Origin: Nitrospirae bacterium CG2_30_53_67
GTDB lineage: Bacteria > CG2-30-53-67
Length of the DNA: 5,848 bases
Direction of reading: 5' to 3'
Assembly: GCA_001873285.1 (NCBI GenBank)
Contig: MNYV01000099.1
Location: 1 to 5,848 of the forward strand
This document shows positions 3,191 to 5,848 of this stretch, in pieces. Position 1 is the first letter of the stretch; each line of letters starts with the position of its first letter. Below the pieces are notes generated by a model that saw nothing but the letters and a program-made list of their open reading frames with translations, made no database searches and was not told the origin of the DNA. The position numbers were made by a program, and so were the translations under genes.

Positions 3191-3243
3191 TTTTACCCAC
3201 TTTTGCATTTTGATCTTTGGTTTTTTATCTTTCTTTGGAAACC

Positions 3244-4878
3244 ATGTCTCTATTGCTGAGTGAAATTCGGCTGACGCCTGACCAGGATGCCTTGGATCTG
3301 AAACAGGTTGTGGCCGGTCTCATGCAGATACCCCTCGCCGAGATCATGTCTTTCCGGATTGTCCGCAGGTCCATTGATGCGCGTCAGGATGTGCGGATCC
3401 TCTATCAGATAGAGATTTCCGTTCCGGATGAGGAGAACCTGCTCCGGAGATTCCGGGAAACCGGCGGGGTGCGGGTCGAGCGCGCAAAACCCTCACCGGT
3501 CTTCCCGCTCATAAGACCCATCCGGTTTGAAACAAGGCCTGTGGTCATCGGATTCGGTCCGGCGGGGATTTTTGCCTCCCTGATCCTCGCCCGTTCCGGG
3601 GCGAAACCCATCATCCTGGAACGGGGGCGCCGCATGAAGGAACGCATCGGGGACGTGCAGGCCTTCTGGTCTGAAGGGGCTTTCCTCCCCGACAGCAATG
3701 TCTGTTTCGGCGAAGGCGGAGCGGGGACGTTTTCGGACGGGAAACTCACGACCGGAAAGAGAGCCCGGGAGATCCCCTGGATTCTGCAGGAACTGGTTGA
3801 TGCAGGAGCGCCCTCGGAGATCCTTTATGAATCCCACCCGCATATCGGAACCGACCGGCTGAGGAGCGTGATCGTCACCCTTCGTGAAAAAATCGAATCC
3901 GCAGGCGGTGAGGTTCGATTCAAAAGCCGGATGACGGACCTCGTGGTTTCCGACGGCGTGGCGCGGGGCGTCATCGTCAACCATCAGCAGGAGATCGAGA
4001 CCGATACCGTCATTCTCGCCCTGGGTCACGGGGCCGGGGATACCCTTGAGGCACTCCTTGGATCCGGGGTCCGGATGGAACCCAAACCGCTGGCCGTGGG
4101 GCTGCGCATAGAACACCCGCAGGAAATCATCGACCGGGCGCAGTACGGCCGGTGGGCGGGACACAGGCGCCTTGGCCCCGCGGATTACCGTTTGACCTTC
4201 CGGGATAAGATTCTGGGCCGCGGGGTTTATTCCTTCTGCATGTGCCCCGGCGGGAAGGTGATCGCGGCGAATGCAGAGCCGGAAAGCGTGGTCACGAACG
4301 GGATGAGTTCTTATCACAGAGCAAGCGGCCATGCCAACAGCGGTCTGGTCGTCACCGTTCATGGAGATGATTTCGGCGGTTCTCAGCCGCTCTCCGGCCT
4401 TGCCTTTCTCCGAGGAATGGAGAAGGCCGCCTTTCAAATGGGGGGAGGGGATTATTCGGCCCCGGCGCAGCGGGTCACGGACTTTCTGCGGGACAAGAGA
4501 TCTGCGGCGCTCCCTCCGGTGACCTATCGTCCCGGCGTGGTCCCGGCGGATCTCATGGGGCTGCTCCCGGATTTTGTCACCCAGGGTCTCAAGCGGGCCC
4601 TTTATGCATGGGGGCGCAGGATTTCAGGATTCCTCTCGGATGAGGCCGTGCTGATCGGGATTGAGACCCGGACCTCCTCCCCGGTGCGGATGCTCAGGGG
4701 TGGAGATTACGCCTCCATCAGCGTGAAAGGGCTCTATCCCGTGGGAGAAGGGGCCGGTTACGCCGGGGGGATTGTCAGCTCAGCCCTGGATGGGGTACAA
4801 TGTATACGATCTATTTTGCAAAGCAAGGGGATCAAGAGACATGAGAGCGAAGTTCAGGAACACGGAATACGGCGTTGA
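3244..4878 (+). CDS. Uncharacterised FAD-dependent dehydrogenase-like flavoprotein (COG2509 type)
   Basis: This is a predicted soluble FAD-binding oxidoreductase of unknown substrate, 544 residues long and near the usual family length. Residues 1 to about 95 form a small N-terminal domain typical of the family, with a conserved RRSIDAR segment. The FAD-binding Rossmann motif follows at 100-108 (VVIGFGPAG: Gly103, Gly105, Gly108), with Glu126 of LERG placed to hold the FAD ribose. The family-defining block GEGGAGTFSDGKL is at 156-168, followed by PHIGTD. A second FAD contact region, GEGAGYAGGI at 501-510, lies near the C-terminus. There is no signal peptide or membrane segment. I chose the ATG at 3244, where the conserved N-terminus begins. 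The only Shine-Dalgarno-like bases are a weak GGA at 3237-3239; an upstream TTG at 3217 would add nine unconserved residues. The last 38 bases overlap the kinase gene, suggesting coupled translation. Family membership is secure, the reaction is not known. Confidence 0.88.
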   Translation: MSLLLSEIRLTPDQDALDLKQVVAGLMQIPLAEIMSFRIVRRSIDARQDVRILYQIEISVPDEENLLRRFRETGGVRVERAKPSPVFPLIRPIRFETRPVVIGFGPAGIFASLILARSGAKPIILERGRRMKERIGDVQAFWSEGAFLPDSNVCFGEGGAGTFSDGKLTTGKRAREIPWILQELVDAGAPSEILYESHPHIGTDRLRSVIVTLREKIESAGGEVRFKSRMTDLVVSDGVARGVIVNHQQEIETDTVILALGHGAGDTLEALLGSGVRMEPKPLAVGLRIEHPQEIIDRAQYGRWAGHRRLGPADYRLTFRDKILGRGVYSFCMCPGGKVIAANAEPESVVTNGMSSYHRASGHANSGLVVTVHGDDFGGSQPLSGLAFLRGMEKAAFQMGGGDYSAPAQRVTDFLRDKRSAALPPVTYRPGVVPADLMGLLPDFVTQGLKRALYAWGRRISGFLSDEAVLIGIETRTSSPVRMLRGGDYASISVKGLYPVGEGAGYAGGIVSSALDGVQCIRSILQSKGIKRHESEVQEHGIRR

Positions 4879-5848
4879 GCTTGAGAAGACCATCACCGAA
4901 CTCACTCATCTCTTCTTCGAGACCGAAAAGAGCAGGAATTTAAAGACCCGCTTTGAGAATCCCCATCTGGTCAAATGCTGGGAGAAGACGGGCTGTACCC
5001 GCAGGGAATGCCCGGCCTATGGGGCCGAGAATTTACGCTGCTGGCAGATCGCCGGGACGCATTGCGGGGATACGATTGTGGGGAGCCGCGCCCGCCTCCT
5101 TCAGGACTGCAAGGACTGTGAGGTCTTCAAGGCCTCCACACGGGAACCGGCATCCGATCTGGGCGAGCTCTTTAATAATATGATGTTTATCCTGGAGAGC
5201 AGCGACCAGAGCAAGTACAAGGAATGCTACATTAAATTCGAAGGCGTGGTCAACGAGATGTCCCGGCTTTTTTTTGAGGCCGAAGAGCACAAGGATTTCA
5301 AGACCCGCTTTGAGAATCCCCTTCTGGTGAAATGCTGGGAGTACACGCACTGTACCCGAGAGGGATGTCCGGCCTATGGTTCAAAGAACCGCCGCTGCTG
5401 GCAAATCGCCGGCACCCATTGCGGAGAGAAGGTGGTGGGGAAGAATGCCCGTCTCCTGGATGACTGCAAGGATTGTGACGTGTTCAAGTTGTCCACCCAG
5501 GATTCCATGGCCGAGTTGGGAGAACTTTTCAACAACATGATGTTTACCCTGGAACAGAGGATGGAGCAGATCAGGGAGGCCGAGCTGGATCTGGAAAAGA
5601 GGATCGAGGAGGCCACGGTTCAGCTCAAGGAGTCACAGGCCCAGTTGATTCAAAAGGAGAAGATGGCCGGCGTGGGGCTTCTGGCCTCCGGCATCGCTCA
5701 TGAGGTCGGGAATCCGCTCACGTCCATCTCTTCTCTGGTTCAATTGATCCAGAGAAAGACGGACGACCCTGTGAGTCAGGAAAGGCTCAGCCTGATTCGC
5801 AAACATATCGACCGGATCTCGGAAATTGTGCGGGAACTGGTAGACTTT
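4841..5848 (+). CDS. Histidine kinase with duplicated cysteine-rich (two-CW-like) sensor module, 3' end beyond window
   Basis: The frame is open from the ATG at 4841 to the window edge: 336 residues, with no stop reached. It overlaps the flavoprotein gene by 38 bases. AAGGGG at 4825-4830 is a loosely spaced ribosome site, and no other nearby in-frame start exists. Residues 12-118 and 131-237 are tandem copies of one module, each with seven cysteines at identical spacing (46, 52, 57, 67, 75, 90, 93 and 165, 171, 176, 186, 194, 209, 212). Each has two CW pairs and a GTHCG segment, resembling the two-CW motif of bacterial signalling proteins. A charged heptad-like segment at about 238-275 should form a coiled coil. 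The phospho-acceptor region follows (GIAHEVGNPLTS, His287). The ATP-binding domain is not in view. No membrane segment is seen, so sensing is probably cytoplasmic. The cysteines suggest metal, Fe-S or redox sensing; the ligand is unknown. Confidence 0.9.
   Translation, partial: MRAKFRNTEYGVELEKTITELTHLFFETEKSRNLKTRFENPHLVKCWEKTGCTRRECPAYGAENLRCWQIAGTHCGDTIVGSRARLLQDCKDCEVFKASTREPASDLGELFNNMMFILESSDQSKYKECYIKFEGVVNEMSRLFFEAEEHKDFKTRFENPLLVKCWEYTHCTREGCPAYGSKNRRCWQIAGTHCGEKVVGKNARLLDDCKDCDVFKLSTQDSMAELGELFNNMMFTLEQRMEQIREAELDLEKRIEEATVQLKESQAQLIQKEKMAGVGLLASGIAHEVGNPLTSISSLVQLIQRKTDDPVSQERLSLIRKHIDRISEIVRELVDF
4874..5194 (+). repeat. First copy of the internal 119-residue-period coding repeat
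   Basis: This segment encodes residues 12-118 of the kinase and pairs with 5231-5551. By hand count 68 of 107 residues match without any gap. The best-kept parts are FKTRFENP-like, KCWE, CPAYG, RCWQIAGTHCG, DCKDC and GELFNNMMF. The DNA is also very alike over the KTRFENP-CW stretch, which suggests a fairly recent duplication or ongoing exchange between copies. Confidence 0.9.
5231..5551 (+). repeat. Second copy of the internal 119-residue-period coding repeat
   Basis: This segment encodes residues 131-237 of the kinase and is offset from the first copy by exactly 357 bases. All seven cysteines and both CW pairs are kept. The copies are joined by a short linker (residues 119-130) that has one extra cysteine at 129. 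The second copy runs directly into the predicted coiled coil leading to the phospho-acceptor helix. Confidence 0.9.

Follow-up and report, generated by a model that had tools for sequence, protein, structure and literature searches.

A soluble sensor histidine kinase begins with a tandem of two HAMP-like helical hairpins, and in each of them a seven-cysteine two-CW core is very probably embedded between the AS1 and AS2 helices. On balance we favour an explanation in which this HAMP-embedded tandem acts on the kinase, the kinase on an NtrC-type response regulator, and the regulator on sulfur genes. The anatomy is well supported; the ligand, the regulon and the chemical change in the core we infer. 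Sequence comparison shows the repeat, its two-CW membership, the conservation of its cysteines, the split HAMP domain of its relatives, the NtrC-type partner gene of its orthologues and the sigma-54 sites ahead of sulfur operons.

The kinase and its neighbours

The window, that is, the whole stretch of DNA analysed, is one entire contig of a metagenome-assembled genome (G000:C99, 5848 nt). It contains metK (TIGR01034), ahcY (TIGR00936), a gene for an FAD-dependent protein, and the 5' part of a histidine kinase gene:

3217..4878, + strand: FAD-dependent protein (PF21688); 38 nt overlap with the kinase start; gene order conserved at orthologous loci
4841..5848, + strand: gene of a soluble sensor histidine kinase, running off the contig after 336 visible residues
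5678..5842, + strand: HisKA dimerisation/phosphoacceptor domain (PF00512, 1.3e-10); phospho-His within GIAHEVGNP

Because the window is the whole contig, the kinase reading frame is still open at position 5848 and the protein is truncated. The orthologue from the same genus (genome G001) has 376 residues and one unit fewer. Translation likely starts at the ATG at 4841, which has AAGGGG upstream. The HATPase_c domain, found in the orthologue (L066), would fall past the contig end. The visible sequence shows no transmembrane stretch, and Pfam searches revealed no input domain in the window kinase besides the two-CW units. The description of this protein as a soluble histidine kinase, made in an earlier note on this DNA, agrees with the HisKA match and with the absence of a visible membrane segment. 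The genes for the FAD-dependent protein and the kinase overlap in G001 as well as in the window, and a functional link between the two products is possible.

A tandem of two-CW units

Residues 12-118 of the kinase align with residues 131-237 (window 4874-5551) at an offset of 119, with 68 of 107 positions identical. The second-best offset gives 13% identity, and 10,000 shuffles reached at most 18 matches. All 14 cysteines fall at matching positions, with the spacings x5, x4, x9, x7, x14 and x2 exact in both copies, so the duplication with a period of 119 residues stands as originally described. A 15th cysteine, C129, falls outside both cores. The repeat is also visible in the DNA (300 nt, 74% identity, spacing 357). 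An assembly artefact was considered as its source and rejected, because the copies are only 74% identical at this level.

The elements of the tandem, all on the + strand, are as follows:

4865..4951, + strand: copy 1 AS1-like helix, residues 9-37 (AlphaFold H9-37, low confidence in copy 1; homology to copy 2)
4976..5128, + strand: copy 1 two-CW core, cysteines 46, 52, 57, 67, 75, 90 and 93 (NF045718, 30.8 bits alone, below the 35-bit cut-off)
5150..5206, + strand: copy 1 AS2-like helix, LGELFNNMMFILE (H107-120; 2-residue break before copy 2 AS1, H123-150)
5207..5290, + strand: copy 2 AS1-like helix, residues 123-150 (AlphaFold models of unit and tandem)
5333..5485, + strand: copy 2 two-CW core, cysteines 165, 171, 176, 186, 194, 209 and 212 (NF045718, 39.2 and 38.4 bits)
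5504..5701, + strand: copy 2 AS2-like helix, running on as a signalling coiled coil towards the kinase (H222-287 in the tandem model, H104-151 in the unit model)

The cores had been likened to two-CW cysteine motifs. The NCBIfam two-CW model, NF045718, indeed matches the whole window protein at 59.2 bits, against a curated cut-off of 35; taken singly, copy 2 scores 38-39 bits and copy 1 falls short at 30.8. Both copies contain the pair of CW motifs, and their conserved cysteines follow the order of the domain. Judged by sequence, both belong to this uncharacterised domain as divergent members. The model matches 40 of 42 units compared, and no Pfam model covers the cysteine core.

Conservation was assessed in 82 distinct open reading frames containing the core, taken from loci fetched by profile searches and hence expected to be biased towards conserved members. 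In this sample cysteines C1, C2, C4, C6 and C7 are 100% conserved, C3 99% and C5 94%; the cysteines are thus kept in orthologues, as had been proposed as a check, and far more widely. A CxxC that had been taken for an addition at the carboxyl-terminal end turns out to be C6-C7 of the two-CW domain itself, invariant in the family. The two-unit array, by contrast, is as unusual as had been supposed: among the 82 reading frames, only that of the window has two complete copies. Two further reading frames with double matches represent a long stand-alone variant, split in two. A search of genome contigs with the tandem as query recovered four loci only, and no second tandem among them.

The kinase-type unit is matched in 172 of 395 sampled genomes of one phylum; the phyla of G049, G126 and G065 have too few genomes for a similar survey. 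The core also occurs in other settings. Stand-alone two-CW proteins (L004, L005, L036-L046, L056-L064), about 100-140 residues long and with a longer C2-C4 loop, occur several to a genome in the window genome (G000:C73, C166, C162) and its relatives. MerR-type regulators carry the core behind the DNA-binding domain (L035:1429-1944, - strand, confirmed by Pfam; L025). Further cores accompany GGDEF (L011/L050), HD-GYP (L010) and GAF-histidine kinase (L018) domains, with HAMP-like flanks around the core in L010 and L011.

A cysteine core within a HAMP hairpin

A HAMP domain consists of AS1, a connector and AS2; membrane HAMPs have a DExG motif at the connector-AS2 junction, of which divergent HAMPs keep a single glycine (PMC3570549). 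AS1-AS2 units may also be concatenated into poly-HAMP chains (PMC3570549). Relatives of the window units commonly present a transmembrane segment, AS1 (for example TRRIQLLRKSAEEIVRGNL), the two-CW core, and AS2 (GDEIQDLAEYFDVMAMTL).

Profile matches support this assignment. The gathering score of the Pfam HAMP model, PF00672, is 25 bits. The natural sequence of L065 scores 26.9 bits in two stretches, with AS1 (profile 2-27) immediately before the core; excision of the core yields a single continuous HAMP match of 40.4 bits. Further natural relatives exceed the gathering score, again with AS1 before the core and AS2 after it. At E values up to 0.1, HAMP is matched in 28 of the 42 natural units, and the next family in 7. 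Among the other core-excised sequences, HAMP became the best hit of L003 (25.8 bits), L012 (22.9), L002 (21.9) and window copy 2 (18.4); excised L007 and window copy 1 gave none, nor did an order-reversed control. Both window copies stay below the gathering score, copy 2 matching only when spliced and spliced copy 1 not at all. Their descent from HAMP rests on their relatives and on the structural model, and we accordingly call them HAMP-like.

AlphaFold models, computed for monomers, predict two long helices per unit. For copy 2 (42 sequences) the model comprises helix 2-32, a compact core, and helix 104-151, with a mean pLDDT of 90.2. In the tandem model, in which copy 1 has low pLDDT, AS2 of unit 1 (107-120) is separated from AS1 of unit 2 (123-150) by two residues. 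The predicted fold is thus helix-core-helix, with a near-continuous helix from unit 1 to unit 2 in the style of poly-HAMPs. No usable structural relative emerged from the PDB by Foldseek, by VIA-align or by sequence search. The duplicated unit had been viewed as a free-standing sensor module; it appears instead to be a helical hairpin of HAMP-like form whose connector houses the cysteine domain, and the input half of the window kinase a soluble, poly-HAMP-like tandem of two such hairpins.

History of the duplication

The same-genus orthologue in G001 (L009/L066) has one unit, as do the outgroups G003 and G005. The first part of the G001 unit resembles copy 1 (92% of nucleotides) and its second part copy 2 (90%), with the switch inside RCWQIAGTHCG. 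This chimeric pattern was matched by none of 20,000 permutations of 86 informative sites, and trees of the two halves group G001 with copy 1 (91%) and with copy 2 (95%), respectively. In the simplest history the duplication precedes the G000/G001 split, since the single G001 copy is a chimera of both, and recombination between two tracts later removed one unit from G001:

5048..5068, + strand: putative recombination tract (RCWQIAGTHCG), copy 1 side
5405..5425, + strand: putative recombination tract, copy 2 side

A recent, lineage-specific duplication is rejected by the same test. That the second copy arose as a recent, possibly neutral tandem duplication with no special function is improbable. 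The same-genus genome manages with one copy, as this reading would have it, but the chimera makes the duplication older than the split, all seven cysteines have been retained in both copies since, and third codon positions account for most of the differences between copies (47 of 91).

A candidate sulfur regulon

The gene order apt-metK-ahcY-FAD-HK-RR (HK, histidine kinase; RR, response regulator) is found in G001 and G005, and metK-ahcY-FAD-HK-RR in G003. The regulator beside the kinase orthologues is of the NtrC type (REC-sigma54 AAA-Fis); the window genome's own regulator was not found in the G000 assembly. Behind the regulator gene, G003 and G005 share an identical sequence, TTGGCATCTCCTTTGCTT, which is close to the sigma-54 -24/-12 consensus and lies within some 95 nt of conserved sequence. 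Per locus, matches to the consensus are no more numerous than expected by chance; the argument is one of position, strand and conservation. In G003, the promoter is followed by genes for DsrE (PF13686/PF02635), a TusA-like protein and an SQR type III-like oxidoreductase. In G005, it is followed by genes for a putative multihaem cytochrome and YeeE, then a PhsA/PsrB/NrfD-type complex. Sulfur operons with a candidate sigma-54 promoter hence adjoin the kinase-regulator pair at two of three orthologous loci; in G001 the genes after the regulator are not sulfur genes.

G000 and G001 also have the dsrE-tusA-SQR operon, at loci apart from the kinase, with a candidate sigma-54 site 46 and 44 nt before dsrE, respectively. 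A second copy of the operon in G003 has such a site at 64 nt. The candidate sites, all from genomes of this family, stand ahead of operons of the dsrE-tusA-SQR or the cytochrome-YeeE-Phs/Psr kind:

L107:2874-2888 (-) and L067:7855-7869 (+)
L133:8951 (-), L134:5464 (+) and L135:5143 (+)

No upstream activator motif common to all five promoters was found. The same sigma-54 motif precedes glnB-glnA in G005, a known type of sigma-54 target. G002, G004, G006 and G007, related genomes that lack the soluble kinase, also lack a close homologue of dsrE, but this pattern follows phylogeny.

NtrC-type response regulators are unusually numerous in these genomes, with 61-88 matches per 2.4-3.1 Mb genome (G000 to G007) and 66 in G000, so a different regulator could activate the sulfur operons in G000 and G001. 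Elsewhere in the window genome, another NtrC-type regulator comes directly after a membrane kinase whose HAMP is split by a two-CW core (L113:6218-9719, G000:C98). We judge the chances even that sulfur genes form the regulon of this kinase-regulator pair.

Proposed mechanism and alternatives

Loss of a cofactor, oxidation, or formation of a persulfide or disulfide at the core cysteines would alter the packing of AS1 against AS2. The two hairpins in series would relay this state down the coiled coil to HisKA, the kinase would phosphorylate the NtrC-type regulator, and the regulator would activate sigma-54 promoters of the dsrE-tusA-SQR or Phs/Psr-type reductase operon. Genomic context and the precedents of FisR and NreB make sulfur or redox sensing the best guess, and the most likely cue is sulfide or sulfane sulfur, or a linked redox state. 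That the cysteine core is the actual sensor of such a cue we hold at slightly less than an even chance.

A serious contender is that the core forms an Fe-S or other metal site for oxygen, NO or general redox, unrelated to sulfur and much as in NreB-type kinases, and that the sulfur operons are coincidental or lie downstream of redox. In a span of about 50 residues, six to seven cysteines hardly vary and resemble cofactor ligands, one of the 42 units weakly matches a 4Fe-4S profile (0.077), and the presence of the core beside GAF, HD-GYP, GGDEF, MerR output or DNA-binding domains suggests a general cue. Neither sequence searches nor Foldseek matched a described Fe-S fold, however, and it is specifically sulfur genes that adjoin two of the three orthologues. 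The near-invariant cysteines would also suit a structural zinc or disulfide knob that only sets HAMP geometry or a partner contact, the cue entering elsewhere: in membrane relatives through sCache or PAS domains, sensors that many of them carry, and in the soluble kinase through a partner protein. This is unlikely, as the soluble window kinase has no other input domain, and stand-alone two-CW proteins of about 100 residues indicate that the domain is useful outside HAMP.

HAMP domains normally relay signals generated elsewhere. If the connector holds a cysteine-rich domain, chemistry at that domain would act on the relay directly. The two-CW domain (named in NCBIfam), histidine kinases and poly-HAMPs are already known; the literature searched described neither the placement inside a HAMP connector nor the tandem or the sulfur context. 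Searches for two-CW, CW with HAMP, and HAMP insertions returned nothing relevant among open-licence papers, a scope in which absence is not proof. The kinase-type arrangement is common, yet neither a structure nor a paper on it came up. As a natural pair with two units and one, the window protein can be compared with its chimeric single-copy relative, and the sulfur operons supply a concrete hypothesis for the cue. More broadly, and tentatively, two-CW domains may be a widespread class of sensors that replace the HAMP connector, the window protein being a two-unit soluble poly-HAMP that reads reactive sulfur and drives sigma-54 sulfur operons.

Comparison with known systems

The window cores share with the NF045718 two-CW domain the order and identity of seven cysteines, both CW motifs, CPAY/CPA, GTxC and CxxC. 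The kinase-type core is shorter (profile 2-78 on about 56 residues) and sits in a HAMP hairpin, in tandem in the window protein.

The poly-HAMP HAMP1-2-3 of Aer2 likewise belongs to a soluble protein, and it joins AS1-AS2 units helix to helix, as is predicted for the window units; divergent HAMPs lack DExG and keep a glycine (PMC3570549). In the published description the Aer2 HAMPs have no obvious motifs for signal input (PMC3570549), whereas each window unit has a cysteine-rich domain in its connector.

FisR, a sigma-54 activator, controls an SQR operon, and a sigma-54 promoter before such an operon is shared with the genomes described here (PMC7315123). FisR senses through its own amino-terminal domain; here a separate kinase would feed a receiver domain (PMC7315123). 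The kinase NreB has been reported as a sulfide sensor controlling sqr (PMC9918477). NreB and other cysteine-based soluble kinases share with the window protein a soluble kinase and a cytoplasmic chemical sensor, putative in the window protein (PMC9918477, PMC8534201). NreB employs a PAS domain and a LuxR-type regulator, in contrast to the two-CW core in a HAMP hairpin and the NtrC-type sigma-54 activator proposed here.
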